Source of the DNA: Desulfofustis sp. PB-SRB1
GTDB taxonomy: Bacteria; Desulfobacterota; Desulfobulbia; Desulfobulbales; Desulfocapsaceae
Direction: 5' to 3'
DNA length: 64,000 nt
NCBI GenBank assembly: GCA_016722945.1
Contig: JAEQMT010000010.1
Span: 389,765-453,764 of the forward strand
In this document: in pieces, positions 12,249-40,008 of the stretch
How positions within the stretch are numbered: position 1 is the first letter of the stretch
How the letters are laid out: the number at the start of each line of letters is the position of its first letter
Notes under the pieces: generated by a model
Database searches by the model: none
Told to the model about the DNA's origin: nothing
What the model saw: only the letters and a program-made list of their open reading frames with translations
Translations under genes and position numbers: made by a program

Positions 12249-14519
12249 CTAGGGCAGACTTTCAGCGGTCACCCGCCAGACCCCGTAGCCGCGTTCCGGG
12301 CGAACATCAACCGGCTGGAAATATCGACCATCATAGCGCTGCTCGAAAAAGAGCCGGGTGAACACCGTATCCATCAAATATTCCGGACCGATTATCCCGA
12401 AACCTGATTGGGGAAAGAGACTTACGAGCATTGAGGCGTCGGGGTGCAGGGACACTGTCTCGGAATTCGAGGCTGTCCGAATGGTGGCGCCGCGGATGGG
12501 GATGGTTTCATTGTTGGTGGTGAGTGTGCCGTGAGTGAGATCGATGGTGGCTGGACGCCTTCTGTAGAGAGCGGTGAAGACACCCGGCGCTGTTTGCTGG
12601 AGATTGTAAAATTGGCCGAGATAGGAATGTTGCGGTGCACTTTTGGTGGCCGGATCCCACAGCCCCCAGAAAAAGGTGCTCTGCCGGACCTGGAGGTAGT
12701 CGATAAATAAATAAACCGGACGCTGATTTTCAGTAAAGAGGAAGGCGAGTGTATCGGCGGTTTTCTCTGGGCTGAATTGGAACTCATGCTCTAGACTGAT
12801 TCGGGCGCTGCCAACTCCTTTGCCCAGCAGTTTTTTGAGGGCCTCGGTGCCGCTTGCCCAGTCATCTTCGCCGGTGCCGAAAAGCGAGTTGGCGCGGTGC
12901 ATGCCATGAATACCGTGGGTCGCGAAGAAATGCATCCAGTTGGCCGCGAACCTATCCTCACGTGCCGCCAGGGGAAGGTTGAGCGCATAGACTGTTTCGG
13001 CCGGATGGAACACCCCATCGGCGATAGCCGCCCGTTCGCTGTAAAATACCAGGGGGTGACCGTGTCCCCATGACGCCCATATGACAGCGTTTTCCGGAGT
13101 GTGGTTGCGCAGGTCGGCCATCGCCTTCAGCAGAACCGGGTGGCGCCTCGGTGTGGTTGAGTTTTGGGCCTGAATTGCCTCATACGGCGCCACTAGCGCC
13201 AGGCCAGCGAGAATGCTCAAAACCACGCCTTTTCCGGCGATGTCCGCGAAGGAGGCGGAAAAGGATTTGTTATCGGCAGGTTGCGAAAAACGCTGCACTG
13301 TTTGGGAAACCATCAGCCACAGAAAAAATGCCATGGCGCCTACCCCCAGGCCGAACAGTGGGGCGGCAAAGATGAGAAAGCGGTTGGCGGTAAACGACAG
13401 TGCAGCCACAAAGACCAGAGAGGCAAGAGACCAGAGGGAACGAAAACCGGTGAATATAAGAAAACACAATCCAATGATACCGATTACCAGCGACGTTGTC
13501 GTACCGGTAACGGATTGGGCAAAGTCGGTCAGGCTGATGACGCTTTGCTGCTCGGAACCGGCGGAGGCGGCAACGGAAAATGAAGAATGGCCGCCGGCAT
13601 CACCGGTGATGTAGAGCCACATTGAGGAGATGTAGTTCCATACCCAAGCGGGATCGTAGATATGTATCTCACCCGCTGCAGCCGCAATTACCAAAAGAAC
13701 CAGGCCAAGAACAAACCAGAGTGCCAGTTGCCTGATCGAACGGCGGGCAACCAGGAGCACCGCAATCAACATGGGCAGACCGCCCAGCGCCAGAGGCACC
13801 AGGGTGGTTGTGTGCCACCACCAGATAAAAAGCAGCAGGTTAAATCCCCCGAGGATGAACCAGAGGGTTTGCTCTTTTCCATTTCTGGCGGAGTTGAAGC
13901 GCAGACTAAAAAACGCGGCACTGACTATGAAGGCAACATTAAGGGTATCGGTATCGAACCATCCCACCGTGCCGCGATTTGCCAGCGCCGGGGAGAGCAG
14001 GGTGGCAAGAGCGGTGGCTAGGCCCATAATCTCGGACGCCGTCCGGCGGTAACGCTCATCGATGAATCGGTGTTGAACCCGCATCCCCAATTCGCGGCCC
14101 AGCAGAAACGCGGCGATGCCCAGAAAGATGCTGAAGAATGGCGGCAGCAGCACCGCGCCCCATTCCAGTGAAATGCCGGTCAATCCAGTGACACCGGCCA
14201 GTACTACCGAAATCAGTGGCGGCCATGCGGAGCGCTGGTAGCCCGTCGGCGCCAGCCGATCTTCATCCAAGGCTGTGTAGCGGCCATGGCTGATGTCCCT
14301 GGCACCATCAATAAAATAGTAGGCATCGACCGTGAGTGTGAGTGGGTTTTGCTGTTCGCCGAAGAAATAGCGTTCAGGATTGCTGCGCCAATGTCCTAAA
14401 TTATCGAAGCGAACGAAAAAACCAAGAGCAAGAACGGCAAAGAGGGCAAGCAGAACCAGAATCGGCTTGAGGGTGGTATTTTTCGCTTTCGTCATAAAAA
14501 ATGGTTCTTTATGCTTCAT
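12249..14519 (-). CDS. STT3/PglB-like oligosaccharyltransferase
   Basis: A 756-residue membrane protein resembling STT3-type oligosaccharyltransferases, which move a lipid-linked glycan to asparagine on the periplasmic side. About eleven to thirteen hydrophobic helices fill residues 15-460. The first catalytic motif is seen as LTLTVDAYYFIDGARD near residue 60 (the Asp of the DAYY region) and the second as GWFDTDTLN near 187. In the soluble domain the usual WWDYG is replaced by an ASWGHGHP stretch at about 482 within VIWASWGHGHPL, followed by a conserved-looking YSERAAIADG. The start could be ATG 14519 or ATG 14495. It stands alone among glycan genes, flanked on both sides by gene remnants. 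Confidence 0.83.
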   Translation of the reverse strand: MKHKEPFFMTKAKNTTLKPILVLLALFAVLALGFFVRFDNLGHWRSNPERYFFGEQQNPLTLTVDAYYFIDGARDISHGRYTALDEDRLAPTGYQRSAWPPLISVVLAGVTGLTGISLEWGAVLLPPFFSIFLGIAAFLLGRELGMRVQHRFIDERYRRTASEIMGLATALATLLSPALANRGTVGWFDTDTLNVAFIVSAAFFSLRFNSARNGKEQTLWFILGGFNLLLFIWWWHTTTLVPLALGGLPMLIAVLLVARRSIRQLALWFVLGLVLLVIAAAAGEIHIYDPAWVWNYISSMWLYITGDAGGHSSFSVAASAGSEQQSVISLTDFAQSVTGTTTSLVIGIIGLCFLIFTGFRSLWSLASLVFVAALSFTANRFLIFAAPLFGLGVGAMAFFLWLMVSQTVQRFSQPADNKSFSASFADIAGKGVVLSILAGLALVAPYEAIQAQNSTTPRRHPVLLKAMADLRNHTPENAVIWASWGHGHPLVFYSERAAIADGVFHPAETVYALNLPLAAREDRFAANWMHFFATHGIHGMHRANSLFGTGEDDWASGTEALKKLLGKGVGSARISLEHEFQFSPEKTADTLAFLFTENQRPVYLFIDYLQVRQSTFFWGLWDPATKSAPQHSYLGQFYNLQQTAPGVFTALYRRRPATIDLTHGTLTTNNETIPIRGATIRTASNSETVSLHPDASMLVSLFPQSGFGIIGPEYLMDTVFTRLFFEQRYDGRYFQPVDVRPERGYGVWRVTAESLP

Positions 14520-15175: not shown

Positions 15176-16171
15176 ATGCCGCAACCAACCATTGCCGTCA
15201 TCGGCGCCGGACAGTGGGGCAAAAACCTCATCCGAAACCTGTATGAACTGGGGGCGCTCCATACCATCTGCACCCGTGACAAAGCAACTCTTAATGCACT
15301 CCTTGAGCACTATCAGGGTGTTGCGGGAGCAGCATCGATAAACCACGTGGTGCGGAACGAAGATATCACCGCGGTATGCATCGCAACCCCAGCCCATACC
15401 CATTGTGAGATTGCCCAAACGGCTATTGAGGCCGGCAAAGATGTTTTTGTTGAAAAACCTCTTTGTCTATCTGTCGAAGATGGCCAAAAACTCGTTGAAT
15501 TGGCTCACCGCAATGACCGGATTCTCATGGTCGGCCATCAGCTCTGGTACCATCCGGCGGTGATAAAGCTCCAGGAGATGATATCAAACGGAGAACTCGG
15601 CAACCTTATCTATCTCTCGTCAAACCGGCTAAATTTCGGCAGATTCCGTCACCATGAAAACGTTCTCTGGTCATTTGCCCCTCATGATATCTCCATGATC
15701 CTTGGACTGGTAGGTGAAATGCCGGTTTCCATCCAGGCGCACGGCTGCGCCCATACCCATTCCAGCGACATCGATACCGCCACCCTGCTGCTCGATTTTC
15801 CCGGCGGCGCCAAGGCCCACGTCCATGTCTCCCGTATACACCCCGGCAAAGAGCAACGGCTTACGGTGACAGGTGAAAAACAGACGGTAATCTTTGATGA
15901 CATGGCCCCCTGGCCCACGAAGCTCACCGGCTATCCGTACACCGTGAACAACGCCGGCGGCCCCATCAATGGTGATTTGCAGCGGCCGTACTCAATTTCC
16001 CTTGAATCACGCGAGCCACTCAAGACCGAGTGTGAACATTTTTTGCACTGCATAAAAACGAGAAGCCGCCCAAAAACAGATGGCACCGAGGGGCTCAGGG
16101 TGATTCGCGTTCTGATGCTGGCCTGGGCAAACATAAATAAAATGTCCGGCTACCCAACGAGGTGCCGATGA
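15176..16171 (+). CDS. Gfo/Idh/MocA family sugar oxidoreductase
   Basis: A 331-residue NAD(P)-dependent oxidoreductase. The N-terminal Rossmann fold has IAVIGAGQWGKNLIRN (GxGxxG), and the EKPLCLS segment near residue 93 supplies the conserved EKP of the family; the substrate-binding C-terminal half includes GHQLWYHPAV. In glycan loci such enzymes oxidise C3 or another ring position of UDP- or other NDP-sugars (WbpB-like), which would fit the aminotransferase and acyltransferase further downstream, but the substrate is not known. The start lies in a perfect 10-bp tandem duplication (TGACTATGCC twice). It opens a plus-strand group of glycan genes. Confidence 0.85.
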   Translation: MPQPTIAVIGAGQWGKNLIRNLYELGALHTICTRDKATLNALLEHYQGVAGAASINHVVRNEDITAVCIATPAHTHCEIAQTAIEAGKDVFVEKPLCLSVEDGQKLVELAHRNDRILMVGHQLWYHPAVIKLQEMISNGELGNLIYLSSNRLNFGRFRHHENVLWSFAPHDISMILGLVGEMPVSIQAHGCAHTHSSDIDTATLLLDFPGGAKAHVHVSRIHPGKEQRLTVTGEKQTVIFDDMAPWPTKLTGYPYTVNNAGGPINGDLQRPYSISLESREPLKTECEHFLHCIKTRSRPKTDGTEGLRVIRVLMLAWANINKMSGYPTRCR

Positions 16172-16308
16172 CATTCGTTTGCACGGTGCTGAAGGGCAAA
16201 CTGCTCGACAACAGTGACGAGGAGATTTGCTGCCGGGCCATCGACCGCACCCTGCGTGAATACCGGATATATAGCCGCTGCTGTTGTCGCTGCTTGAACG
16301 AGCAATGA
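16168..16308 (+). CDS. Short hypothetical ORF overlapping the oxidoreductase stop
   Basis: A 46-residue frame, starting in an ATGA overlap and reading MTFVCTVLKGKLLDNSDEEI then a Cys/Arg-rich tail. The overlap hints at a real translationally coupled gene, yet the tail looks random and no family is recognised. It may equally be the start of a decayed gene. Treat as uncertain. Confidence 0.25.
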   Translation: MTFVCTVLKGKLLDNSDEEICCRAIDRTLREYRIYSRCCCRCLNEQ

Positions 16309-16360
16309 AGGAGTTGTATAATCAGAAAGTTCAAAAAAATGAGGGGGCCTATAGGTAGCC

Positions 16361-17230
16361 ATGGTTGAAACCAACCGGAAACCCGCGGTCACAGTCGTTC
16401 TTCCCGCCTTTAACGAGGCTGAGGTAGTCGGCGAAACGGTGAAGCGGATCAGGGAACTGCACCCGGACTTCGAGGTCCTTGTCGTCGACGACGGCTCTAC
16501 CGATAGCACCATGCAGGCGGCCATGGACGCCGGCGCCAACGTATGGCCGCACCCGTATAACATGGGTAACGGTGCCGCCGTCAAGTCCGGTCTGCGCGCC
16601 GCTCGGGGCGATTATGTCGTCTTGATGGACGCCGACGGCCAGCACGACCCGGCCGACATCGCCCGGCTGCTCGAGCAGGCCGACCACTTCGACATGGTGG
16701 TCGGGGCCCGCACCAAAGCCTCGAAAACGAAAGCTCACCGCAACCTCGCCAACGGGATCTACAACCGCTTCGCCAGCTATGTGACCAAGTTCAAGATCGA
16801 GGACCTCACCTCCGGCTTCCGGGTGATGCGCCGCTCCACCGTCGAGCAGTACATCTACCTGCTGCCCAACACCTTCTCCTACCCCTCGACCATCACCATG
16901 GCTTACCTGCGCAGTGGCCGCAGCGTCGCCTATGTGCCGATCGAGACCGCCAGGCGGGTGGGCAAGAGCAAAATCAAGCTGGTCCGCGACGGCACCCGCT
17001 TCCTCCTGATCATCACCAAGATCGCCACGCTGTTCGCCCCGCTGCGGATTTTTATGCCGGTGAGCCTGGTGTTTTTTCTGCTGGGCCTCGGCTACTATGC
17101 GTTCACGTATCTCACCCAGGGGCGCTTCACAAATATGTCGGCGCTTCTGCTGAACAGTTCGGTGATCGTGTTCCTGATCGGTTTGGTGTCGGAGCAGGTG
17201 ACGCAGTTGAAATATGAAAGGACAAAGTGA
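16361..17230 (+). CDS. GT2 glycosyltransferase, DPM/DolP-mannose synthase-like
   Basis: A 289-residue inverting glycosyltransferase. The cytosolic GT-A domain has VTVVLPAFNEAEVV at residue 10, VVDDGSTDST at about 45, and the metal-binding MDADGQHDP near 90. Two hydrophobic helices at the C-terminus (about residues 225-250 and 262-283) anchor it in the inner membrane. Proteins of this shape move a sugar from a nucleotide donor to polyprenyl phosphate, producing lipid-linked sugars. The stop codon overlaps a GTG start of the next gene. A good donor for the nearby oligosaccharyltransferase or flippase pathway, by inference. Confidence 0.9.
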   Translation: MVETNRKPAVTVVLPAFNEAEVVGETVKRIRELHPDFEVLVVDDGSTDSTMQAAMDAGANVWPHPYNMGNGAAVKSGLRAARGDYVVLMDADGQHDPADIARLLEQADHFDMVVGARTKASKTKAHRNLANGIYNRFASYVTKFKIEDLTSGFRVMRRSTVEQYIYLLPNTFSYPSTITMAYLRSGRSVAYVPIETARRVGKSKIKLVRDGTRFLLIITKIATLFAPLRIFMPVSLVFFLLGLGYYAFTYLTQGRFTNMSALLLNSSVIVFLIGLVSEQVTQLKYERTK

Positions 17231-18480
17231 GTGCAGCAGTAATCGAAAGTGATGGTCCTGCACCGGCGGCAGCATCATCACCATTCAGCCGTAATCCTGG
17301 CATCAACGATTCTATCGTGCGAATATTACTCATCACCTTCAACTACCCGCCCAAAGTCGGGGGTATGGAGAACATGCTTTTTCAGCTTGTTTCCCACTGG
17401 CAGGCCGATCATGTTGTTACCGTCATCGGCCCCCATGGCAGCGATGCTGCTTCTGATTCGATGACACCGGTACTGCGGCCCACAAAAAAAGGGCTGTTCT
17501 GGTTTTTTATGGCGGCTCTGAGCAATTCTCTGAAGCGGTTGAGGGCGGAACAATTCGATGTCTTGTTTGCCGGCAGTGCGCTGGTGATGCCGCTTGCTGT
17601 TTTTCTGGGCAGAATGTTCAACCTGCCGGTTGTCACTCAGGTGCATGGGCTGGACCTCACCTACCCGAACAGAATGTATCGGGCGGCCATCAGGCGCCTG
17701 CTGCCCCACTCGAACCTGGTGGTGGCCAACAGCGCCAATACCGCACGGCTCGCCATTGGATCGGGAGTGCTGGAAAAGAATATCAAGGTGATCAACCCCG
17801 GGCTGAATTTTGCGGAATTTATTACACTGCCGGATCGTGAACGCGTAAGAGTAAAGCACAGATTTCAGGGAAAAAAGGTGATTCTGAGCGCCGGCAGGCT
17901 GGCCCCGCGAAAAGGGGTCTCCGAGTTTATCGAACATGTTCTTCCCTCCTTGCATCGTAACCATCCAGACCTGCTGTTTGCCGTGGCTGGGGGCAACCCT
18001 ACCGAGTCATTGGCCCACCGGGAAGATGTGATTTCCCGGATTCGCCTTGCGGTGAAAAGGATAAATGGAGCAGACCATGTCCGTGTTCTTGGCCGAGTGC
18101 CTCGGCAGGAACTGCTCGAACTTTATGCGGCTGCGGATTTGTTCGTCCTGCCCGCGCTTCCAACCGCTCACGATGTGGAGGGCTTCGGCATCGTCCTCAT
18201 CGAGGCGGGTGCTGCGGGATGCCCGGTCGTCTCGACCAGGCATGGCGGCATCCCGGATGCGGTTGTCGACGGCAGCACCGGCGTACTCGTCGATCCGGGC
18301 GACTGGGAAGCGATGGCTGCGGCCCTGTCTACTCTGCTGGCAGAACCCGAGGCAGCGGCGGCAATGGGACGCGCAGGCAGGCAACGTGCCGAGACGAATC
18401 ATGACTGGTCCATTGTCGGCCGAGAATATCTCGCGGCGATATCGAATCTGATTACTCCAGCTACCCGGATTCCTGAATGA
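17227..18480 (+). CDS. GT4 glycosyltransferase
   Basis: A 417-residue retaining GT-B enzyme. The N-terminal domain begins with RILLITFNYPPKVGGMENML and the C-terminal domain carries ILSAGRLAPRKG and EGFGIVLIEAGAAGCPVVST, the donor-binding region. The GTG at 17227 overlaps the preceding stop in GTGA but adds a 30-residue low-complexity leader; a second in-frame GTG at 17317 lies right before the first strand and may be the true start. It probably adds a hexose in the same glycan as its neighbours. Confidence 0.9.
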   Translation: MSAAVIESDGPAPAAASSPFSRNPGINDSIVRILLITFNYPPKVGGMENMLFQLVSHWQADHVVTVIGPHGSDAASDSMTPVLRPTKKGLFWFFMAALSNSLKRLRAEQFDVLFAGSALVMPLAVFLGRMFNLPVVTQVHGLDLTYPNRMYRAAIRRLLPHSNLVVANSANTARLAIGSGVLEKNIKVINPGLNFAEFITLPDRERVRVKHRFQGKKVILSAGRLAPRKGVSEFIEHVLPSLHRNHPDLLFAVAGGNPTESLAHREDVISRIRLAVKRINGADHVRVLGRVPRQELLELYAAADLFVLPALPTAHDVEGFGIVLIEAGAAGCPVVSTRHGGIPDAVVDGSTGVLVDPGDWEAMAAALSTLLAEPEAAAAMGRAGRQRAETNHDWSIVGREYLAAISNLITPATRIPE

Positions 18481-19214
18481 ACAATAATAATTCCAAGCCC
18501 TTGTCGGAGACAGCCAAACAGTTCTACGACGAAAAATATTACTCGTCTGCAACAGCAGATGTCCGCGTGTCTGCGCACCTGCGAAAACTTGCAAAGAAAC
18601 TGGACATGCGTACGGGAACGAAGGTACTTGATGTCGCCTGCGGGACCGGAAACTGGCTGCTGGCCGCAGCGCACGAGGGCGCCGCGCCCTTCGGCATAGA
18701 TATTTCGGAGAAGGCGATCGCAATCTGCAGAAGGGTAATGTCGGACGGAACCTTCGTCTGCGCTGGAGCCGACACGCTGCCATTTGAGGACAGGGTGTTC
18801 GATCTTGTCTCCTGTCTGGGGGCCCTAGAACATTTTCCGGATATAGCACGAAGCTTGCGAGAAATCGTCAGGGTAGGAAAGGACGATGCCCGGTTCCTGC
18901 TGCTGGTGCCTAATTCGGGATTTCTTACCGCCCGGCTCGGTCTCTATTCCGGCACCCATCAGACTGAGGTGAAAGAAGAGGCGCACACTATCTCAGAGTG
19001 GGAAGCGATGTTTCGTGAAGCGGGGTTGACGGTCGAGAATAAATGGAGGGACCTGCATGTAGTGAGTTGGGATTGGATCGCTCAGGGGGGCATAAGGCAC
19101 ATTCCCGTGCGGGTCATGCAAGCCATAATGCTCTGCGTGTGGCCACTGAAGTGGCAGTATCAGGTATATTTTCTTTGTCGAAAAGTGAATGCAGTACTAG
19201 CCAATAAACCTTAA
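18477..19214 (+). CDS. Class I SAM-dependent methyltransferase
   Basis: A 245-residue protein with motif I VLDVACGTGNWLLAA near residue 52, an acidic FGIDIS at about 72, and motif IV-like DLVSCLGALEHF near 107. It starts in an ATGA overlap with the GT4 gene, so the two are co-transcribed, and ends 21 bp before a convergent glycosyltransferase gene. It probably methylates a sugar hydroxyl of the glycan; the target is not readable. Confidence 0.87.
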   Translation: MNNNNSKPLSETAKQFYDEKYYSSATADVRVSAHLRKLAKKLDMRTGTKVLDVACGTGNWLLAAAHEGAAPFGIDISEKAIAICRRVMSDGTFVCAGADTLPFEDRVFDLVSCLGALEHFPDIARSLREIVRVGKDDARFLLLVPNSGFLTARLGLYSGTHQTEVKEEAHTISEWEAMFREAGLTVENKWRDLHVVSWDWIAQGGIRHIPVRVMQAIMLCVWPLKWQYQVYFLCRKVNAVLANKP

Positions 19215-19235
19215 TTCCATCAATGATGTTGATAA

Positions 19236-20303
19236 TTAATTTTTTCTCAAAATCTGGTCCAAGCTAGTAGCTATTTCAGGCCAACCCTTTTGTGGACCAT
19301 AGTCGGGGATTGAATAGTTGATACTTGTGAGTATTTTTAAGCTAAGATCTGCAGCATCCCCTGGAATAAATAGCAAGTCTTTATTCTCTTTTAGGATCCA
19401 TTCAGTTGCTAGTGTACTGGCTGCGACAACCGGCACCTCACAGGCCATAGCTTCATAGAGTTTTGCCGGATAGCTGTGATTGCCGAAACTGGATTGTTTG
19501 TTCATCACTGTCAACACATCCATGCTGTTTATAAACGCTGGAACCTTATCGTCTGGCAGATAGCCGATCCAGCGGGCAAAAGATGGTAGGGATACCGAAC
19601 GTGATTTTCTTCCAGTCAAGATTAATTCCACCTTACCTAGTTTGTTCTTCACTAGCGAAAATGCTTCAAACAACGTTTTCAATCCACGCGTCGGATGTAT
19701 TGAGCCGCAATACCCGATTAATTTCTTATTTGTTGGAAGGCCAAGCGACTGTCTGCAGGCCTTTTTGTCCATAGGTACGAATTCCGGGTCAGTAGCCATC
19801 GGTAAAACTTCGACAGGCATACCGGGGCGGTTTTTAGTGAGCAGATTGGCAAGGCCTGGCCCTACGGCGGTGACGGTTGTGGCTCGTGAAAGCGCTTTAC
19901 GCCAGGCCCAGTGCAAAGGCTTACACCATGGGATGTAGCTTTCGTAGTTGTCGTAGGCATCTATGATGGATTTTGCACTAGATTGCCTTGCAAGCCACTC
20001 TGCCAGAATCCCATACCAGGTATCGGAGAACCCAACGATCCAGCCAGGATGAATTTCTGAGGCGATTCTTTTGGCTTCTTTTACATAGCCGCCGGGCCCC
20101 CAGGGCAGTGCAGAGATTGAATGCAGGTGAAAGTTGCAATTTTGTTTGTAAACGGACGGTTCAAGCTTATAGCTGAGAAGCACCAGATGCACCTGGTGAC
20201 CATGTTCTGCCAGAAGGCTTGGAAGATAATAGAAACGGCCATATGGCCGGGTGATGAGATCGCGCCCTTGGGGGCAGCGTTTGCAGAGGAATACGATTTT
20301 CAA
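19236..20303 (-). CDS. GT4 glycosyltransferase
   Basis: A 355-residue GT-B-type enzyme. The C-terminal half has LIGYCGSIHPTRGLKTLFEAF near residue 215 and YPAKLYEAMACEVPVVAAS at about 293, the usual donor-binding signature with the Glu of EAMA. It is the last gene of the minus-strand glycan operon and converges on the methyltransferase gene 21 bp away. Sequence is more AT-rich than the plus-strand group. Confidence 0.88.
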   Translation of the reverse strand: MKIVFLCKRCPQGRDLITRPYGRFYYLPSLLAEHGHQVHLVLLSYKLEPSVYKQNCNFHLHSISALPWGPGGYVKEAKRIASEIHPGWIVGFSDTWYGILAEWLARQSSAKSIIDAYDNYESYIPWCKPLHWAWRKALSRATTVTAVGPGLANLLTKNRPGMPVEVLPMATDPEFVPMDKKACRQSLGLPTNKKLIGYCGSIHPTRGLKTLFEAFSLVKNKLGKVELILTGRKSRSVSLPSFARWIGYLPDDKVPAFINSMDVLTVMNKQSSFGNHSYPAKLYEAMACEVPVVAASTLATEWILKENKDLLFIPGDAADLSLKILTSINYSIPDYGPQKGWPEIATSLDQILRKN

Positions 20304-20322
20304 AGTAACATTTCGATCAATT

Positions 20323-21558
20323 TCATTGACCAGCTACTTCTGAATAAACGCGTTGATACTGTTCAGCTACTACTGGATATGAAAATTGTGCAACTGCCCG
20401 AGTACGAGCATTTGCACTTAGTTCACCACTTTCTTTTTGATCCAGAACCCAGCAGATACCCTGCGCAAGATCTTCAACATCAAATGGCTCGGCTAAGTAT
20501 CCAGTACGCAGATGTTCGACTATATCTGAAAGCCCAGAGGTTTCAAACGCCACAACGGGCGTTCCACAAGCGTGCGCTTCAGATGCAGTTTGACCAAACG
20601 CTTCTATTCGAGAGGGGACAACCGTTAGGTCCGCTGCGCTATATAACAGGTTTAGACTAATATCATCATACAAGTGGCCTCTAAAGTGAATAGGAAAACC
20701 CAAATCAAGTGGTGATTCTGGTGAGAGTTGGCCAAATATTGCTAATCTCAAATCAAATAATTTACCTTGTAAACCTTTTAGAGCCGCAGCAAGCAAGTCG
20801 AAACCTTTTATGGGGTTATTATTTCCACTCATGGCACCAAAAAGTATTAGTGGCCCATCCTCAGGTAACCTCATTAACCGCCTCGCAACTCTTTGATTTA
20901 TCGGCTGCCATTGATCAGTGTCGATAGCATTGGGTACAATAAAAACTGGCCAGTCTCGCATGAGTGCACTTTGTTTTACGCAATTAGCAAGCCAGCAACT
21001 CGGAGTGACTATATGTATCGGCCGTTTCCAATGTTTTTGTTTACGCTGCCAAGTGAACTTGTTTAGGTCGAAACCGCTTTCATAATTAGGGCGATTCACT
21101 TTTAGATAACCATCCCGCCAACGAAAATCATCTGTATAGTGTTCTGCACCACAAAAGGCCCACATATCATGTAAGGTCCATACAATTGGACCCCGTAGCC
21201 TGCCAATGTCAGCAATAGACATCATCTCTTTGTTTATCCAGTGGAGATGGGTTATTGAATTGGTTTGTTTGTTGAGGTTCCTCGATCGCCAAGTGGGCAT
21301 GTTGGCGGGTGAGTGCATGTTATGGTTTCGAGTTTTAAGTAGTCTCGCGAACAGAATCCCCATTATCTTTCTGATAAAAACCATTCCCTGTTGCCAATCT
21401 CCATCTGGTGGTTTAACGGTCCAATCTCCTGAGTTTGCTACGTCGACCATCATCGTTGAATCGATGCCATGGTCGAGCAAGGCATGATGGATCCGATATG
21501 CGGCACGCGCGGCGCCACCGGAAGTATCGGATTGGCTCAGGTGGGTAATTTTCATCAA
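20323..21558 (-). CDS. GT4 glycosyltransferase (WcaC-like)
   Basis: A 411-residue GT-B enzyme. The N-terminal SQSDTSGGAARAAYRIHHAL and THLHWINKEM and the C-terminal IEAFGQTASEAHACGTPVV are typical of the WcaC-type GT4 enzymes that build colanic acid-like polymers. Its start overlaps the end of the methyltransferase gene at 21555 by 4 bp, so it belongs to the same operon. Confidence 0.9.
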   Translation of the reverse strand: MMKITHLSQSDTSGGAARAAYRIHHALLDHGIDSTMMVDVANSGDWTVKPPDGDWQQGMVFIRKIMGILFARLLKTRNHNMHSPANMPTWRSRNLNKQTNSITHLHWINKEMMSIADIGRLRGPIVWTLHDMWAFCGAEHYTDDFRWRDGYLKVNRPNYESGFDLNKFTWQRKQKHWKRPIHIVTPSCWLANCVKQSALMRDWPVFIVPNAIDTDQWQPINQRVARRLMRLPEDGPLILFGAMSGNNNPIKGFDLLAAALKGLQGKLFDLRLAIFGQLSPESPLDLGFPIHFRGHLYDDISLNLLYSAADLTVVPSRIEAFGQTASEAHACGTPVVAFETSGLSDIVEHLRTGYLAEPFDVEDLAQGICWVLDQKESGELSANARTRAVAQFSYPVVAEQYQRVYSEVAGQ

Positions 21559-22394
21559 CTAGAGAACATTTTTTTTATTAATTCGAAGGGATAAATGCAA
21601 AAATTAAGAAAAGGACCAATAAACCGACTTAACATCTCAGCCGAACGGGCGTCAGAAAGGTTTAATGTGCCAGAGCGTTGATAAATCATCGCATGTCTTG
21701 CTCCTGGTACTCTACCTAAATATTTGAAACCCATAGCCTTCATCACAAAGGTAAAGGTATGTCGTAAATGAAAAGTAGCAGGAAGGTGACACTTGATAAC
21801 AGGGCTAAAGCAGTTGGCAAAAACTACTATGCCATCCATTTTCACAGATGATCCTATCCTGTGGGCTAAATTGATCGGGTCTTCAACATGCTCAAGAACG
21901 TCTTGGGCGACAATTGCATCATAGTACGGTTCAATATCTGGCTTAATGGTGATAGTGGCAAAACGTTTCACTCGATCAAATCCCAACTTAGTAGGGTAAG
22001 GTTCTATAATCGAAATTTTAGTAATGGGAGATAGTTTATTGATGGCTAAAGCTAGTTCCCCGAACCCTCCACCATAATCAGCAACCTCGTAAATTTTTAG
22101 ATTGATAAGATAGTTAGCTATAGCTAGCCTATGTTTAACAGAGACCGGATCAACCGCTGTGAATATACCATTCATAAGCCAGACAGGATGACTGTAGAAT
22201 GCGTCAATAGGCTGAGTACCAATTGGTTTTAAATTGTCCAAACCCAAGATATCCCAGATTCGATCCATTTCGCTCCAGATCCATGAAAGTTTCGGTAAAT
22301 CTTCCGGTAAGCGAATAAGATATGATTCGGTGTCTTGGTCAATTTTGTTTCGAGATATTGCAAATCCCCAAACAGATAATGGAAGGTTGTTCAT
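21555..22394 (-). CDS. Class I SAM-dependent methyltransferase
   Basis: A 279-residue protein with a motif I region YEVADYGGGFGELALAI near residue 102, ISIIEPYP as the acidic loop, and YDAIVAQDVLEHVEDP near 157, a layout common in polysaccharide-locus methyltransferases. It overlaps both neighbours by 4 bp (ATGA-type). Substrate unknown; a glycan hydroxyl is most likely. Confidence 0.85.
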   Translation of the reverse strand: MNNLPLSVWGFAISRNKIDQDTESYLIRLPEDLPKLSWIWSEMDRIWDILGLDNLKPIGTQPIDAFYSHPVWLMNGIFTAVDPVSVKHRLAIANYLINLKIYEVADYGGGFGELALAINKLSPITKISIIEPYPTKLGFDRVKRFATITIKPDIEPYYDAIVAQDVLEHVEDPINLAHRIGSSVKMDGIVVFANCFSPVIKCHLPATFHLRHTFTFVMKAMGFKYLGRVPGARHAMIYQRSGTLNLSDARSAEMLSRFIGPFLNFCIYPFELIKKMFSS

Positions 22395-23341
22395 TTCTGT
22401 ATTGATCTGGTATTTAGGCGAAATAAAATTTGTAGAATTCGCAATAGTAACAACAATGTAATTCTTGGGAACCGGATATTTCTTCCTTCAAAATGATGAT
22501 AAAATACATAGGTGTCTGCTTCAAAGTAACGTCGTACTTCTTTAGGGTGTTTCAAGGCACCAATGCTGTTAGTGGTATGGCTGTCTTTTTCTGATAATTT
22601 GGAAGTGGTATGTGACGCTTCAGGTCCGAATCCGATATTGCTTACTAAATTAACATTTGGTGTTGCGGTTAATCCACCATGATGCCATAGACTCGCGGTC
22701 CATTGATAATCCCATGTGTCGATTTTGTTTTTGTACACCCTGTTAAATATTCTTTTCCAATACCAACGCTCTAAAGGATCTGGATTGATATCTCTCCAAC
22801 CAGAGGACTTTTGCCAATCCGGCCAAAACGCTATATCCCCTTGATATAATTTCCAGGCACGACGCCAACTAGCCCATCCCCAACAATGATTGTATTTTGA
22901 GAAGTAATATGATGCTTCACCACGTATTTTACCATTCTGGAAATTATTACCCGTAATGACTGCTACTCTGTCATTATTAGCGTAATGTCTCAGCAGTGTC
23001 TCGCAAAAATGGAAAAAATCTAGGTGCGGTAAACAATCATCTTCCAATATAATTCCAAGCTCTTCGTTTCTGAAAAACCAGGTGATTGCTTCACTTACAG
23101 CAGCCTTGCAGCCTAAGTTATTATTCCGAAAAAGCGTGTTAACATCGCATGGCCAATCTACCTGTGTTGCGATAGTCCTTGCCTGTTCTGTTTTTGATCT
23201 GTCGCTTTCTATTCCCTGGCGCGGCCCATCGGCTCCGATATAGAGCCGGGGAGGCTGGACCTTACGGATTCTATCAAACACCTGGGCGGTCATCTCCGGG
23301 CGGTTAAATATGAGAAAGAGTATAGGAGTGGATAGTCTCAT
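22391..23341 (-). CDS. GT2-like sugar nucleotide transferase (HlpA-like)
   Basis: A 316-residue protein that begins TPILFLIFNRPEMTAQVFD and contains GIILEDDCLPHLDFF near residue 94, where the EDD forms the metal-binding motif. CWGWASWRRAW near 150 is characteristic of this group, often named hemolytic protein HlpA-like. It is thought to be a GT-A glycosyltransferase. It overlaps the downstream methyltransferase gene by 4 bp. Confidence 0.85.
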   Translation of the reverse strand: MRLSTPILFLIFNRPEMTAQVFDRIRKVQPPRLYIGADGPRQGIESDRSKTEQARTIATQVDWPCDVNTLFRNNNLGCKAAVSEAITWFFRNEELGIILEDDCLPHLDFFHFCETLLRHYANNDRVAVITGNNFQNGKIRGEASYYFSKYNHCWGWASWRRAWKLYQGDIAFWPDWQKSSGWRDINPDPLERWYWKRIFNRVYKNKIDTWDYQWTASLWHHGGLTATPNVNLVSNIGFGPEASHTTSKLSEKDSHTTNSIGALKHPKEVRRYFEADTYVFYHHFEGRNIRFPRITLLLLLRILQILFRLNTRSIQK

Positions 23342-23524
23342 TTAGCCGAGGGCTTGACATTGGTGCCTAAAAGTACTCCTAACTTCAATGAGCCATAAAT
23401 AAGTTGACCACATAGAGTTTCGAAGATATCCATTCTTGACATAAGTCGGGTGGCCAGAGGCAGCATGATATGGAAACCGATATTTCACAAAAAATTTGAA
23501 TAATATTCCCATATCCTTGCACAA
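23342..23524 (-). CDS. Short hypothetical frame, possible remnant
   Basis: A frame open for about 70 codons between two glycosyltransferase genes, containing RFPYHAASGHPTYV and RNSMWSTYLWLIE. It would need TTG (23524) or an internal ATG to start and shows no family match. The in-frame sequence continues upstream without a stop into the end of the next gene, so it may be a C-terminal relic of a lost gene. Confidence 0.25.
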   Translation of the reverse strand: MCKDMGILFKFFVKYRFPYHAASGHPTYVKNGYLRNSMWSTYLWLIEVRSTFRHQCQALG

Positions 23525-23549
23525 AAATGAAAGCCTAGGATTGTACCAG

Positions 23550-24743
23550 TTAATATTGATCAGATTTGCTATCCAGAAATAGTTTATATCCTTTCTCTAA
23601 TATTTTATCGCATGATAAAATATCTCCATAATCAGCATGTGAATGTGATCGAAATCTTAAAATATTTTTAAAAGTTATTATCTTTTTTATTTTAAATAAA
23701 ACAAAAGAAAAATATTTTTTTATGTGAAATAAATAATAAAAATATATATGCTTCGGAACTTCAACTCCTAAATCTTCTCCAAGTTTCTTGAGATCATAAA
23801 TTTCCACTTTGTTTTTTAACTTAATTATCGCATCATAGAAAAGTTTTCTTACTTTTTTAAGAGTAAATTCGTTATATGATGTTATTGGGAAAGCTGAGAT
23901 GTAAGCCTCAAAAAAGACTAAACTAAAGGTCATCACTTTTAGGTCACCTAAAGATTTGTGTATTGTCAGGGCATCGATGTGATGCATACCGTAAAAATCT
24001 TCGTCACGATCTTTTATAATCTTTTTATCTTCGGTAATAGCTTTGTGCGGTGAACTGCCAACCCAAGTCATTGGGATTCCAGTTTCAATATATCTATAAG
24101 TGTGGATACAGGCCATTAAAGCACTATAGGCGTCAGGAGTTACTGATTTGAAATATACATCATTCTGGGACTGCAAGACTCTATTAATCAACGAACGTCT
24201 ATGGAAACCACCAGAATACATTTGTGGTAGTGAAATATAATCGATTTCACAATCTAAAGTACGCTTGAGTTGCTTTTTAGAGTCTTGCCATTTTTCACCT
24301 GTTGTGAAAGATAGGGATACAACTAAATCACCATAAGTCTCTTGGCAACCTTCCCAAAAGTAATAGGCTCTAGGAGAAAATATCGCCTCTGCTTGTGGAT
24401 ACTTTTTTATTAAATAACGTAAATGCTCATAACAGTGGGGCATAACAGCGTCATCATCTCCAATAAAGGTGACCCATTCTCCTCTTGAATTTCTTAATAA
24501 AAATTCAAAATTTTCATGCATAGGCAATGGAACTGAAGGACGAACTACCTTCAAACGTTTATCTGAAAATGAATCGCATATGGTTGAACTTTCATCCACG
24601 CTGTGGTTATCACTCACTATTATTTCAATTGAACTAGAGGATATGTTAAGGCAACTTTGTATAGCATATTTTAAATAATTTGCTCGGTTTCTTGTAGGGA
24701 TCAAAAGAGAAAGTATCGGTCTATTTTCGTCAATCATGGTCAT
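23550..24743 (-). CDS. GT2 glycosyltransferase, AT-rich
   Basis: A 397-residue GT-A enzyme. The N-terminus has LSLLIPTRNRANYLKYAI, IIVSDNHSVDES near 37 and WVTFIGDDDAVMPH near 91 with the metal-binding DDD. The second half lacks recognised domains and is rich in Lys, Phe and Tyr. It is strikingly more AT-rich than the rest of the window, with long A/T runs, suggesting acquisition from another genome. A 121-bp gap separates it from the flippase gene. Confidence 0.87.
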   Translation of the reverse strand: MTMIDENRPILSLLIPTRNRANYLKYAIQSCLNISSSSIEIIVSDNHSVDESSTICDSFSDKRLKVVRPSVPLPMHENFEFLLRNSRGEWVTFIGDDDAVMPHCYEHLRYLIKKYPQAEAIFSPRAYYFWEGCQETYGDLVVSLSFTTGEKWQDSKKQLKRTLDCEIDYISLPQMYSGGFHRRSLINRVLQSQNDVYFKSVTPDAYSALMACIHTYRYIETGIPMTWVGSSPHKAITEDKKIIKDRDEDFYGMHHIDALTIHKSLGDLKVMTFSLVFFEAYISAFPITSYNEFTLKKVRKLFYDAIIKLKNKVEIYDLKKLGEDLGVEVPKHIYFYYLFHIKKYFSFVLFKIKKIITFKNILRFRSHSHADYGDILSCDKILEKGYKLFLDSKSDQY

Positions 24744-24864
24744 TTTATTGTTATAAAATTAGTGAATAAATTAAGCATTGAGTCTATGCAAATATCTTGA
24801 GGCGCCCAAGGGTGCGTACTTCACTTAATTGATCAATTTCAGCAGAGCAATTAGTTGGGTAGAT

Positions 24865-26385
24865 TCAGTCTCCATATGCGTTGGTGTATTTAATAAAGTA
24901 AGGATTTAAGGTACTGGTTAATAGGCGCCGAACGTCAACAGCAGTCAGAAGAGATGCTCCAATGGTTATGGTTGCGGCGACCAAGAGCAGCAGGAATTCA
25001 GTTAAAGTGTTCTCTGATAAATGCCAAATGATTTTCAGCATATAGGCAGTAACGAGACTCGCTCCTAAAGGAAACAGAAGATCACGTAAGTACCAGCGAA
25101 ACTTTTCTCCCGTTAATATTTTCTGATACATCAAATGTATGCCTACCAGCACATATCCTGCGTTCAGGAAGACCCACACCCAAGCCGCCCCCTCAGCACC
25201 ATATCGCGGTGTGGCCCAGAGAATCGCCGGTACAATGAAGAGGACAGCGACAATGTTGATTTTTATGGTTAATCCGGTCCAACCGTGGGCAAGTTGTGTC
25301 TGGTAAGGAATCCACATCAGACCATTCAGCAAGTTTCCCAGCATCAGAAGACTGAGCAACGGTGCCGAGCGGGCAGCGAGTAAGTGATCCTGTGCCCAGA
25401 GCCGCAGAAGAGTTTCGGGGAAGACGATGATCACAATTGCCGCGCTGCCGGCAATTACGCTGACCATCTGTGCCCCCAGGTGATAGGTCTTGATAAGCGC
25501 GTCACGGTCGTCCTGAGCGTACAGTTCGCACAGGCGCGGGTAAAATGCCTGGGTGATCGGCGAGATTAGCATATAGAGGGCGCCTGCGACCACCGCAGCC
25601 AAGGTGTAGAAACCGTACTCGCTCAGGCTGAGTAGTTTGGAAAGCAGAATCTTGTCCATCTGCGTCAGCAGCAGTGTCAGGAACGTGATGCCAGTCATCC
25701 CCCCTGCAAATCGCCAAACACCTTGCAGGGCAGAACGCGAGAAGTGCGCCCTATGCCCGGAACTCGGCAGGCTGGCATAGGTGATTGTAGCCAGGGTGCT
25801 CAAAGTGAGAAGTGAGAGAAATCCTTGCCAGATAAAAAAGGCCTGGATGGTTGGCGAGATCCAGGCAAAGACAGCGATGGCGCCGAGTCCGCGTATCGTT
25901 GCCAAACTGCTGTTGACGACATTGAACAAAACCTGACGTTGAAGGCCAATAATACTGCTGCGGTAGATGGTCTCAATAAAACGTAACGCGGTAACCAAGC
26001 CCATTAAGGCAAAAGCTTGCGTAACAACCTCAACCGGTAATGTCTCGGCCTGCAGCCATGACCTGGCGATCCAATTGGCGCCAAACGCCACACTGCCGGC
26101 GATCAGGGCCGCTACGCCAAATGCGATAAATTCGATGGTTCTCAGCAGATCGCGAATGGATTGTGCGCTGTGATGACCGCCGGTAAAGTACGCCATTTCA
26201 CGGCTGAGTGTTGGTGTCATGCCCATATCCAACAGGCTGAACCACGCTGTGAGCACGGCGAAAATACCTATCAAACCATATGCTTCAATGCCGAGATATT
26301 TGATATATAACGGAATGAAAGCCAGGCCCATCAAAGCAGTCCAGCCCTGGCCGAGGTAATTGGCGATGATGTTTCGTTTGAGCAT
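24865..26385 (-). CDS. Wzx-type polysaccharide flippase
   Basis: A 506-residue integral membrane protein with twelve to fourteen helices and the start NIIANYLGQGWTALMGLAFI typical of the PST/MATE-like flippases. It should move the undecaprenyl-linked glycan repeat across the inner membrane. It begins 10 bp after the CmcI-like gene. No Wzy-type polymerase is recognised in the window, which leaves an ABC-independent route to the oligosaccharyltransferase as one possibility. Confidence 0.9.
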   Translation of the reverse strand: MLKRNIIANYLGQGWTALMGLAFIPLYIKYLGIEAYGLIGIFAVLTAWFSLLDMGMTPTLSREMAYFTGGHHSAQSIRDLLRTIEFIAFGVAALIAGSVAFGANWIARSWLQAETLPVEVVTQAFALMGLVTALRFIETIYRSSIIGLQRQVLFNVVNSSLATIRGLGAIAVFAWISPTIQAFFIWQGFLSLLTLSTLATITYASLPSSGHRAHFSRSALQGVWRFAGGMTGITFLTLLLTQMDKILLSKLLSLSEYGFYTLAAVVAGALYMLISPITQAFYPRLCELYAQDDRDALIKTYHLGAQMVSVIAGSAAIVIIVFPETLLRLWAQDHLLAARSAPLLSLLMLGNLLNGLMWIPYQTQLAHGWTGLTIKINIVAVLFIVPAILWATPRYGAEGAAWVWVFLNAGYVLVGIHLMYQKILTGEKFRWYLRDLLFPLGASLVTAYMLKIIWHLSENTLTEFLLLLVAATITIGASLLTAVDVRRLLTSTLNPYFIKYTNAYGD

Positions 26386-26395
26386 CAGCAGAGAT

Positions 26396-27160
26396 TTACC
26401 GTATCCGCTTCAAGTACCCATCCGGTGCGACACTAATCAGGAGTTTGTGCTCGATCTGTTTGTCGATCTCAAACTCGGGATGGGTTTTAAGGTACTGATG
26501 GACGGCGGTTTTGGGGTTATTGCCGGGACCCCATGGTCGGTCAGGAAACATTTCAGCGGGCATATTGTCGATGATGGTGTCGAAGACGACACAATAGCTG
26601 CCCGGGTTGACCAGGGGGGCATAGGCCTCCAACTCGGCCAGAACGTGATCGTGGGTGTGCATGGCGTCGAGACAGACCAGTATACGCTCATGGTTGGCTG
26701 CCACTTTGTTCACCTGATCTATCACTTCCGGGGCGATGGACGACCCTTCGATCATATCGATTCGTGAAAACATGGGGTGGGCCTCTATTGCTTCGCGGTT
26801 GTGGGCACGAATGTCGATATCGATGCCCATAACCTTACGATTGGATTGGGCTGGATTCATGGATTGTCCGGCCTCGATGGCATCGGCCATGTCGAGCAGG
26901 GCCAGCATCGAGGCACTGAGGATCAGTGATCCACCGTGGGCGATGCCGGTTTCGATGATCAGGTCCGGCTTGACGGCCCAGATGATCTCCTGCATTGCCA
27001 CGATATCTTGGGGGTATTGGATGATAGGACTAGAAAGCCAACAAAAATTATAAGTGTATTTATAAGATGCACTATGATTCATCCATGCAAGTGAAGTATT
27101 CTTCAACTTCTTGTCATTGGCTATAAGTTTAATGTTATTTATCACTTCATGAAGGAACAT
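26396..27160 (-). CDS. CmcI/rhamnosyl O-methyltransferase family protein
   Basis: A 254-residue protein of the cephalosporin hydroxylase (CmcI) family, which are SAM-dependent O-methyltransferases despite the historic name. IIETGIAHGGSLILSASML near residue 70 is the SAM-binding loop, VMGIDIDIR at about 112 the acidic strand, and CLDAMHTHDHVLAELEAY near 161 the family hallmark with metal-binding-like Asp and His. It likely methylates a deoxyhexose in the glycan. Confidence 0.87.
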   Translation of the reverse strand: MFLHEVINNIKLIANDKKLKNTSLAWMNHSASYKYTYNFCWLSSPIIQYPQDIVAMQEIIWAVKPDLIIETGIAHGGSLILSASMLALLDMADAIEAGQSMNPAQSNRKVMGIDIDIRAHNREAIEAHPMFSRIDMIEGSSIAPEVIDQVNKVAANHERILVCLDAMHTHDHVLAELEAYAPLVNPGSYCVVFDTIIDNMPAEMFPDRPWGPGNNPKTAVHQYLKTHPEFEIDKQIEHKLLISVAPDGYLKRIR

Positions 27161-27194
27161 AGTCTCTATATATCTCCAAATTTACTTTATGATT

Positions 27195-27836
27195 TTAGAA
27201 TTTATTGTATCTAATAATTTTCCCTGGATTTCCAACTACGACAGCATAATCTGGGATATCATTAATGACTACACAACCAGCTCCTATTGTGACATAGTTA
27301 CCTATTTTGATACGCGGCAAGATTGTAGAATTGGTTCCAATAAAGCAGCATGATCCTACTTCGCAGCAACCTGATATACTGGCAGCATGAGCAATAAATG
27401 TTGATTCACCAATAACACTTTCATGAGCCACAAGAGCACCAATATGGATGCTACAATTATTACACAATTTTGCAGATGCTTGGACGATAACTGATTCTTG
27501 TATATATATTCCTAGACCAACATCAACCATACTTAGATTTACAGACGGATGAATGAAATTAGTCATCAACCCTCCAGAATTTATAATATCCTTGGTTATG
27601 TAGTGCCTAGAAAGTATATCTCCTGTGATAAGATTTACAAATCTAACATCTGGATTTATCAATTGATTTACACACTTTTGTCCACCAATTATATCATATC
27701 CAAAGAAATTCTTGCCGTGTTTTGATTTGTCGTTATCAAGAAAACCGGCTACTTGGAAATCAGGAGATGAATTTTCTACTGCTTGTATCATTCTGATTGT
27801 TTCAGGATTTGATGCCCCAAAAAGATAGATTTTCAT
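27195..27836 (-). CDS. PglD/NeuD-type sugar acyltransferase
   Basis: A 213-residue protein. The N-terminal part starts KIYLFGASNPETIRMI, a Rossmann-like nucleotide-sugar binding half; the C-terminal part shows left-handed beta-helix hexapeptide repeats (for example ESTFIAHAASISG and IGNYVTIGAGCVVINDI) with a His in the FIHPSVNL/AHESVIG region. Such enzymes transfer acetyl or another acyl group to the amino group of 4-amino sugars. It lies 6 bp downstream of the DegT-type aminotransferase gene, which would make its substrate. Confidence 0.88.
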   Translation of the reverse strand: MKIYLFGASNPETIRMIQAVENSSPDFQVAGFLDNDKSKHGKNFFGYDIIGGQKCVNQLINPDVRFVNLITGDILSRHYITKDIINSGGLMTNFIHPSVNLSMVDVGLGIYIQESVIVQASAKLCNNCSIHIGALVAHESVIGESTFIAHAASISGCCEVGSCCFIGTNSTILPRIKIGNYVTIGAGCVVINDIPDYAVVVGNPGKIIRYNKF

Positions 27837-27842
27837 AGCAAT

Positions 27843-28970
27843 TTATTTTGTATAATCTGCTGTTGCATTCAATACTGAATTCGTCACTCGCACTATATCG
27901 TCATCTGAGATATCATGATAGCTTGGTAGGTTAATAGATCTATTGGGAATGTCGAATGCGATCTTATTAATTGATGAAAGAGAGTTATTATTAAAGAAGG
28001 AAAAACTGGAAAGGGGATAAAAAAATACCCTTACATCTATGTTCTCAGTTGAGAAAATTTCTAATAGAGACGTTCTGGTAATTTTAGTTTTCTGATCAAA
28101 AACGACCGTTGGCATCCACGAACCATTAATTACTCCTGGAGGTTCAGGATTCATTGATAGTAGAGGAGATGAGTTAAGAATATTCTTGTAACTTGCAAGT
28201 ATTTCACGTTTGCGAATGATCAATTCCTCAATTCGCTCCATCTGAGCACAGCCGATGGCAGCCTGGATGTTAGACATTTTATACTTGTAGCCTATCATGT
28301 CCGGCCAGAATTGTTTGGTTTGACGACTGCTGCGGCCATGATTGCTGAGAGTAAGAACTCGATCATATAAAGCACCATCGTTGGTGACAAACATGCCTCC
28401 CTCTCCGGTTGTAATGGTCTTACTACCATGAAAGGAAAAGGTTCCGAAGGTGCCCACCGAACCAGCCCGCTTCCCATGGTAAGCCGAGCCTATGGCCTCT
28501 GCAGCATCTTCTATAATCGGAATCCCGTGTTTTTCACAAATGGCAAGCAACGCATCCATGTCGCACAGATTTCCATAGAGATGAGTTGCAATGATTGCCC
28601 TGGTGCGAGGTGAAATAGCTTTTTCTGCCAACTTGGGGTCAATACACCACGTGTCAGGTAAAATATCGACAAAAACAGGCGTGGCGCCCAGGTGAACAAT
28701 CGGTGCAGCTGTTGCAATCCAATTTGTGTCGGCCAGAATTACTTCATCTCCAGGGCCGATATCCAGAGCGGCCATTCCCATGTGGAGTGCACCGGTACAG
28801 CTTGATGTGGCAATCGCGTATGTAACTCCCAAATGAGTCTTGAAGGCTTCTTCAAAGCGATAAATATAATCGTAGCAACGATCTCCCCAGCCATTGGCGG
28901 CAGCATCGGTTGCATAACTGATTTCCAGATCAGTTATAGATGGTTTTGTGTAATAAATCTTTTTTTTCAT
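27843..28970 (-). CDS. DegT/DnrJ/EryC1/StrS sugar aminotransferase
   Basis: A 375-residue PLP enzyme. TFSFHGSKTITTGEGGMFVT near residue 180 contains the PLP lysine, so this is an aminotransferase and not a ColD/RfbH-type dehydratase, which lacks that lysine. IIEDAAEAIGS near 155 binds the cofactor. It should transaminate a 4-keto (or 3-keto) group of an NDP-sugar with glutamate. It overlaps the C-methyltransferase gene by 4 bp and precedes the acyltransferase, an arrangement that fits an N-acyl-4-amino-4,6-dideoxy sugar. Confidence 0.92.
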   Translation of the reverse strand: MKKKIYYTKPSITDLEISYATDAAANGWGDRCYDYIYRFEEAFKTHLGVTYAIATSSCTGALHMGMAALDIGPGDEVILADTNWIATAAPIVHLGATPVFVDILPDTWCIDPKLAEKAISPRTRAIIATHLYGNLCDMDALLAICEKHGIPIIEDAAEAIGSAYHGKRAGSVGTFGTFSFHGSKTITTGEGGMFVTNDGALYDRVLTLSNHGRSSRQTKQFWPDMIGYKYKMSNIQAAIGCAQMERIEELIIRKREILASYKNILNSSPLLSMNPEPPGVINGSWMPTVVFDQKTKITRTSLLEIFSTENIDVRVFFYPLSSFSFFNNNSLSSINKIAFDIPNRSINLPSYHDISDDDIVRVTNSVLNATADYTK

Positions 28971-37533: not shown

Positions 37534-37582
37534 CTCTTGCTCCATTGGTTAAAGGTAAACGGGAATAGGTCAGTTTCATTTT

Positions 37583-38180: not shown

Positions 38181-38196
38181 TGGCATAGATTGTGCT
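38181..38196 (+). promoter_or_regulatory. Sigma-54 promoter of the minor pilin operon (candidate)
   Basis: TGGCATAGATTGTGCT has GG and GC exactly 10 bases apart and five of the six TGGCAC positions, a weaker match at the -12 part than the pilA promoter. The expected start of transcription is around 38206, only a few bases before the likely GTG start of the first minor pilin gene, which would make the leader very short. Confidence 0.55.
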
Positions 38197-38207
38197 TAAA
38201 CAACATT

Positions 38208-39480: not shown

Positions 39481-39506
39481 TCGGGCAAAAACGATATAGA
39501 GTAGTG

Positions 39507-40004: not shown

Positions 40005-40008
40005 AAAC

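Follow-up and report, generated by a model that had tools for sequence, protein, structure and literature searches.

A single pocket, composed of the WWDYG motif and the DK/MI helix, accounts for the N-X-S/T rule in all three domains of life. The Trp-Trp-Asp of WWDYG and an MI or DK motif located on a kinked helix together form the Ser/Thr pocket of PglB and AglB (PMC3703281). The DNA analysed here, a stretch of 64,000 nucleotides from Desulfofustis sp. PB-SRB1 (hereafter the window), contains a gene encoding an STT3-like transferase in which this motif is replaced. This raises the question of whether such a protein could still transfer a glycan and, if so, to which kind of acceptor.

The gene encoding the transferase covers exactly the interval given in Table 1, comprising 756 codons from an ATG to a TAG; its GC content by codon position is 0.59/0.46/0.63, against 0.53 for the window. 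The protein matched the Pfam STT3 family above the cut-off (51.4 vs. 24.5 bits), and a genome-wide search identified this match in the transferase only. The Pfam PglB core domain was detected at residues 479-529 with a score below its cut-off (18.1 vs. 23 bits), and the NCBIfam PglB equivalog NF050801 reached 54.6 bits, far under its cut-off of 1300. At E 0.01 the transferase matched no Pfam family beyond STT3 and the STT3/PglB core, and no Pfam match of the PglL/TfpO/WaaL-ligase kind was found in it. A phmmer search of the PDB with the single sequence rendered one row at chance level and no relative, and when contigs were first scanned with this one protein, none of 14 stretches could be confirmed, whereas searches based on alignments succeeded. 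When 17 homologues belonging to the window's order were combined into a profile, it matched C. lari PglB (E 1.7e-61 to 2.8e-61), followed by C. jejuni PglB and then by eukaryotic STT3.

An AlphaFold2 model of the transferase, generated from an alignment (A3) of 47 window and locus sequences out of the 60 aligned, showed a pLDDT of 92 and a pTM of 0.91. Comparison of the predicted structure with PglB, which an earlier reading of the sequence alone had suggested, identified PglB as the best match (6gxc; Z 36.0, rmsd 3.3 Å, 644 residues, about 15% identity). This match spans residues 14-751 of the model and comprises the GT-C membrane region and the C-terminal periplasmic core, that is, the oligosaccharyltransferase (OST) fold. 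PglB chains scored Z 35.7-36.0, eukaryotic STT3 up to 30.0 and AglB up to 28.3; the top 20 structural rows were all PglB, STT3 or AglB chains (Z 22.7-36.0), and the next families were protein O-mannosyltransferase (20.4) and ArnT (18.7). Foldseek also returned PglB first, then STT3 and AglB. By sequence and predicted fold the transferase is therefore a homologue of STT3/PglB. The sequence-only reading had taken it for an STT3-like oligosaccharyltransferase, an identification borne out by the Pfam match, the profile alignment and the structural match, and the motifs it had named (DAYYFIDGARD, FDTDTLN and WGHGHPL...YSERAAIADG) were all located in the translated open reading frame.

Table 1. Positions of the transferase, its aligned residues and the genes discussed in the text (window coordinates unless a locus is named).
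Feature	Position	Strand	Basis or remark
Nucleotidyltransferase + HepT-like ribonuclease	10911-11956		just downstream of the transferase gene
STT3/PglB-family oligosaccharyltransferase-like protein, 756 aa, SWGHG type	12249..14519	-	ORF, Pfam STT3, predicted fold
Residues 608-618, aligned with the MI-motif kinked helix facing WWDYG	12666..12698	-	alignment; 11 residues
W554, invariant in SWG type	12858..12860	-	12/12 SWG vs. 0/32 WWD
W528, invariant in SWG type	12936..12938	-	12/12 SWG vs. 0/32 WWD
SWGHG, residues 483-487, aligned with PglB WWDYG	13059..13073	-	alignments
R380, aligned with Arg of PglB 'RFTIY'	13380..13382	-	R in 54/54 sequences
E323, Glu of EL5 TIXE-like motif	13551..13553	-	E in 54/54
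D189-T190-D191, DxD motif	13947..13955	-	D189 53/54 (one Glu, L024), D191 54/54
D65, aligned with first catalytic/metal Asp of PglB	14325..14327	-	D in 54/54
Glycan locus: glycosyltransferases, methyltransferases, CDP-glucose 4,6-dehydratase, nucleotidyltransferase, aminotransferase, NeuD-type acetyltransferase	15176..32584	.	domain matches
Wzx/MOP-type flippase	24865..26385	-	Pfam Polysacc_synt 55.3 bits vs. cut-off 28.2; NCBIfam MOP flippase below cut-off
VKOR domain fused to DsbA/thioredoxin-like domain	33494-34711		between glycan locus and pilin genes
FDD/TPR-type proteins	34653-36716; L108:8200-9876; L110:3999-5846; L105:2-2101		
PilA-like type IV pilin gene, candidate acceptor	37111..37545	-	N_methyl 39.4 bits vs. 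cut-off 21.2; 22.6 kb from transferase
Minor-pilin-like run: GspH/FimT-like, PilW-like, one ORF without Pfam match, PilX-like	38190..40743	+	
PilY1-like proteins with CBM_5_12 matches	L105:13642-19752; L113:3-5777		
Short PilA-like gene beside 128-139 aa protein	L105:4642-5364; L113:13777-14519		
Two STT3 homologues of G188, SWGHG and WWSYG	L113:8338-10506, 17004-18968		

The motif itself was absent as such, as the sequence-only reading had held. In the alignment with C. lari PglB, the PglB segment AWWDYGYP lies opposite the xSWGHGHP position of the 17-homologue profile; the motif segment is thus present and substituted, not missing, and WWDYG corresponds to S483-W484-G485-H486-G487 of the transferase. 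A pattern search of the whole protein for WWD.G, WW.YG, W.DYG and WWDY gave no match, ruling out a canonical copy elsewhere, and the sole WW is that of WWWHTT at position 233. As a sequon-reading PglB should show at least WWD and SWGHG was found instead, we do not file the transferase under that name. WWDYG is reported to be strictly conserved and to lose function on substitution; when C. jejuni PglB was screened by random mutagenesis, W457S and D459V emerged as single mutants that were strongly expressed and inactive, next to W458A-D459A as the inactive control (PMC3527161). The W-to-S change in the sequences carrying SWG at this site (the SWG group) corresponds to W457S. The SWG group hence carries one change that by itself inactivates PglB, together with a further change at an essential position.

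Outside the motif, the metal/catalytic acids of the alignment (EL1 Asp, EL2 DxD and EL5 Glu) are all present, as D65, D189, D191 and E323. We take D65 to be the equivalent of D56 of C. lari PglB, D189 and D191 those of its D154 and D156, and R380 that of PglB R375, which contacts the pyrophosphate. All 12 SWG sequences keep D65, R182, D191, E323, R380, D501, G502 and H505, and 11 of them keep D189 (Glu in L024). In the DGGK region, D501, G502 and H505 are kept, V503 and F504 occupy the positions of the second Gly and the Lys, and A507 lies opposite the Gly of PglB DGGKHLG (G481 in C. jejuni). Two candidate columns for the equivalent of PglB R331, the -2 reader, vary in all groups, its placement being uncertain. 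E323 and the Gln that follows it in the EL5 motif are invariant in the SWG sequences; in AglB, the TIXE motif of EL5 contacts the peptide (PMC8342417).

The helix that faces WWDYG differs as well. The aligned segment has 11 residues in 11 of the 12 SWG sequences and 12 in the remaining one, against 13 in 31 of the 32 WWD sequences (15 in the other), while the ten sequences with neither motif have 11 to 13. That of the transferase is two residues short with respect to its WWD relatives, a comparison of length in which the MI register is not assignable from sequence. Two tryptophans, W528 and W554, distinguish the SWG from the WWD type (Table 1) and might refill the pocket. Motif and helix changed together essentially once; as this provides one or two independent contrasts, their statistical coupling has no replicate.

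The tree and the counts comprise 54 sequences. From 67 deduplicated hits, 60 sequences of more than 600 aa were aligned (L089_m1465 and L098_m433 were dropped by hand and five by length), and six from Omnitrophota were left out. These six STT3-like proteins (L064, L065, L066, L068, L069) represent another natural departure from WWD, five having WWPPG and one WFDPG. At the motif, the 54 sequences comprised 12 SWG, 32 WWD and 10 otherwise, a 12:32 ratio of SWG to WWD that is not a census because one of the two patterns used in the main contig scan required the mid-motif W and an S before it or neighbouring. Ten SWG sequences belong to the window's order (genomes G000, G034, G056, G095, G100, G107, G116, G123, G151 and G188) and two are gammaproteobacterial, from Rhabdochromatium marinum and from a MAG of a Bathyaustriella symbiont. 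Judging from inferred names, G188 is Desulfogranum marinum, G034 a Desulfocapsa MAG from the family to which the window belongs and G116 a Desulfobulbales MAG. The search labelled as that of the class covered 257 genomes and returned only the window's order; 21 of the 257 showed a family match, ten of them SWG, nine otherwise and two (G117 and G144) unreadable. A search of 395 phylum genomes, 69 of them matching, returned 30 loci, two of which belonged to the window's order and were set aside. Among the remaining best-scoring 28 loci, 27 had WWD and none had SWG (24 WWDHG, and one each of WWDNG, WWDLG, WADHG and WWDHA).

Pairwise identity among the 12 SWG sequences is 28-57% (median 35%), all have open frames of 695-756 residues, and 65 of the 756 columns are invariant, S483, W484, G485 and G487 included. 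As these sequences were picked by SWG, the constraint that counts is their grouping on a tree built without the motif and helix columns. On this tree 11 of the 12 fall in one branch (SH-aLRT 99%), and the twelfth, with SWGYG, lies just outside together with RWGYG and DWSHG, in a branch of 14 with 96% support. A single clade for all 12 was not rejected (p-AU 0.336), a result that is no proof of one clade. Diverged homologues thus keep the motif together with the catalytic/metal residues, which argues against noise or decay as its origin. A separate observation concerns G188, which has two STT3 homologues, one with SWGHG and one with WWSYG. A proposed rule holds that the paralogues of an organism have the same DK/MI type of pocket (PMC3703281); the G188 pair, known here by motif and not by DK/MI type, bears on it.

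On the strength of the alignments and the model, the reading we favour, with some reserve, is that of an enzyme active in the transfer of lipid-linked glycans, with a +2 Ser/Thr pocket that was retained once it had been rebuilt and with a changed choice of acceptor. Such an STT3/PglB-type membrane enzyme would take the glycan from an undecaprenyl-pyrophosphate carrier and deliver it to a periplasmic acceptor by the usual metal-carboxylate chemistry. After the rebuilding (W to S, D to G, a shorter helix segment and two new Trp), it would no longer read the +2 Ser/Thr as PglB does; another acceptor might be chosen, or the acceptor might be held by other contacts. That the enzyme is active we infer from sequence and model; that its acceptor choice differs is probable because the +2 Ser/Thr pocket was rebuilt and then conserved. 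The suggestion in the sequence-only reading that specificity may be altered is hence plausible, and is strengthened by the clade-wide constraint and by the change in the facing helix, while for the acceptor itself the analysis offers candidates only. Less firmly, the acceptor may belong to the cell surface, perhaps as a type IV pilin or minor pilin.

A donor glycan might be supplied from nearby. The gene had been said to lie beside a full glycan locus, and a glycan-assembly locus with a Wzx-type flippase does adjoin it (Table 1). Its CDP-glucose 4,6-dehydratase scored 474 bits (cut-off 278) and its NeuD-type acetyltransferase 145 bits, just under the cut-off of 160.8. This locus is a possible source of the donor glycan, and the Wzx/MOP-type protein possibly flips the lipid-linked form. 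No conserved neighbour beyond the transferase was found, the widest family occurring in only 4 of 14 genomes. The genome contains one Wzy_C protein, far from the window, so that an O-linked ligase-type enzyme elsewhere is possible.

Three other kinds of gene were observed in the region. Just downstream of the transferase gene, the nucleotidyltransferase and HepT-like ribonuclease are likely a MntA/HepT toxin-antitoxin module. A VKOR domain fused to a DsbA/thioredoxin-like domain is encoded between the glycan locus and the pilin genes. A protein with an 'FDD' segment near its start and TPR repeats at its C-terminal end is encoded at 60 bases or less from the transferase in two genomes, G095 and G123; in G034 and in the window its gene lies at other places of the region. 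It may resemble TMTC-type GT-C proteins.

Regarding the pilins, the window contains a PilA-like gene and a minor-pilin-like run. Only the first gene of this run is over the cut-off (N_methyl 23.3 vs. 21.2), the rest being below it or unmatched, and the first two rest on homology to genes of G034 and G188. A PilB ATPase over the cut-off is encoded in the genome. Behind the SWG gene of both G034 and G188 lie, at about 240 bases or less, genes for GspH/FimT-like, PilW-like (over the cut-off in G188 only), third prepilin, PilX and PilY1-like proteins, the latter of 1925-2037 aa. A sigma-54 response regulator, putatively PilR-like, is encoded directly upstream of the SWG gene in G188 and G056. The PilY1-like proteins showed CBM_5_12 matches, over the cut-off in G034 (28.0 vs. 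26.2) and below it in G188. In the same loci, short PilA-like genes (89-92 aa) stand beside a second gene, for a 128-139 aa protein whose start is signal-like, much as in the split PilA-N/PilA-C of Geobacter.

A prepilin pattern scan located prepilin genes at 7 kb or less from the transferase in 8 of the 16 order genomes with usable flanks (G034, G188, G115, G010, G069, G055, G026 and G256). These 16 derive from the 21 matching genomes, leaving out G056, G151, G133 and G144 (short contigs) and G117 (weak hit), and include G123, G116 and G100, with a short flank on one side. From the 7-24 N_methyl matches per genome, the upper-bound expectation by chance is 0.89 genomes and P(8 or more) is 5e-7, a value that is only a guide because the 7 kb limit was set after the distances were seen and because the genomes, being from one order, are related. 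The clustering of surface genes also counts against reading the linkage as specific. Since it occurred in 2 of 8 SWG genomes vs. 6 of 8 others, and the distance in the window is 22.6 kb, the linkage to pilins is not tied to the SWG change. Type IV pilins are thus candidate acceptors for the family in this order and do not explain the SWG change. We put forward tentatively, as a proposal that may well fail, that the SWG clade rebuilt the widely shared pocket for the +2 Ser/Thr and glycosylates something else than N-X-S/T sites, for instance a type IV or minor pilin.

The same proteins bear on a different explanation, namely that the transferase is an ordinary N-X-S/T oligosaccharyltransferase in which the +2 Ser/Thr is read by other residues, e.g. 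S483, H486 or a new Trp, leaving specificity unchanged. In 14 nearby pilins and partner proteins we found neither depletion nor excess of sequons, the counts being at chance, so that sequons were neither kept nor lost; the lowest single P for an excess was 0.059, in a WWD-type neighbour, and the PilA-like protein of the window has 3 sequons vs. 2.0 expected. The SWG sequon total covers three of the five SWG-linked proteins, the partner proteins of G034 and G188 having been counted under other. The lack of depletion suits an unchanged specificity, as do the retention of W484, the final G, D501, G502 and H505 and the report that Desulfovibrio PglBs differ at -2 and still use N-X-T (PMC4894442). 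However, two of the three pocket residues are altered in 12/12 SWG sequences and the facing helix segment is shorter, and W457S and D459V each abolish the activity of C. jejuni PglB (PMC3527161), which makes this explanation unlikely, even if it deserves serious consideration.

It is improbable that the transferase uses no peptide, acting instead on an acceptor that is not a protein, such as a lipid or another glycan, or hydrolyzing the lipid-linked donor. This would accord with an altered peptide-reading element next to retained aligned donor and metal residues, with the adjoining polysaccharide locus, and with the 8 of 16 genomes, six of them SWG, that have no prepilin gene at 7 kb or less. 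Nevertheless, the EL5 motif, through which AglB contacts the peptide (PMC8342417), has an invariant E323 and next Gln in SWG, and no constant neighbour family names another acceptor. A decaying, inactive STT3 relic would be in line with a motif reported as strictly conserved and inactivated by substitution (PMC3527161), but it is very hard to reconcile with open frames in 12/12, a conserved core, an invariant new motif and a single origin that is not rejected. Finally, a different GT-C family merely resembling STT3, to which the low PglB equivalog and core domain scores might point, is barely conceivable, as a better fit of that kind was ruled out by Pfam, with STT3 and its core as the only families, and by both structural searches, with the next family at Z 20.4.

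If the SWG clade does glycosylate a target outside N-X-S/T, this would be the first natural STT3 shown to depart from the sequon rule, as far as the accessible open-licence literature goes. Within that literature, including the available portions of PMC3703281, PMC3527161, PMC8342417, PMC4287180 and PMC12153357, we came across no STT3 clade that naturally lacks both the first Trp and the Asp, and SWGHG occurred in an unrelated context only. A natural clade with the pocket replaced and the aligned catalytic residues kept makes the sequon as sole target a testable proposition, and a transferase with another acceptor rule would be useful for the attachment of glycans at chosen protein sites.

Among known systems, Campylobacter PglB (C. 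lari 3RCE/5OGL/6GXC; C. jejuni 3AAG) shares the fold of the transferase over nearly its whole length, as well as the aligned DxD, EL5 Glu, Arg and DG..H residues. It differs in having WWDYG instead of SWGHG and is about 15% identical, and the transferase has a helix segment of 11 residues where WWD relatives have 13. The WWDHG-type STT3 homologues of Desulfobacterota belong to the same family and are 26-31% identical to the transferase (rows of alignment A3); in contrast to it, they retain the Trp pair as well as the Asp and, almost without exception, the 13-residue helix segment. Desulfovibrio PglB is also a bacterial STT3-type enzyme whose acceptor rules are unlike those of Campylobacter, its reported relaxation being at -2, on N-X-T motifs (PMC4894442). 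The pilin O-oligosaccharyltransferases PglL/TfpO provide a functional analogy only: their genes are located near those of their target proteins (PMC3643930), and, unlike the transferase, they belong to another enzyme family, related to WaaL ligases.
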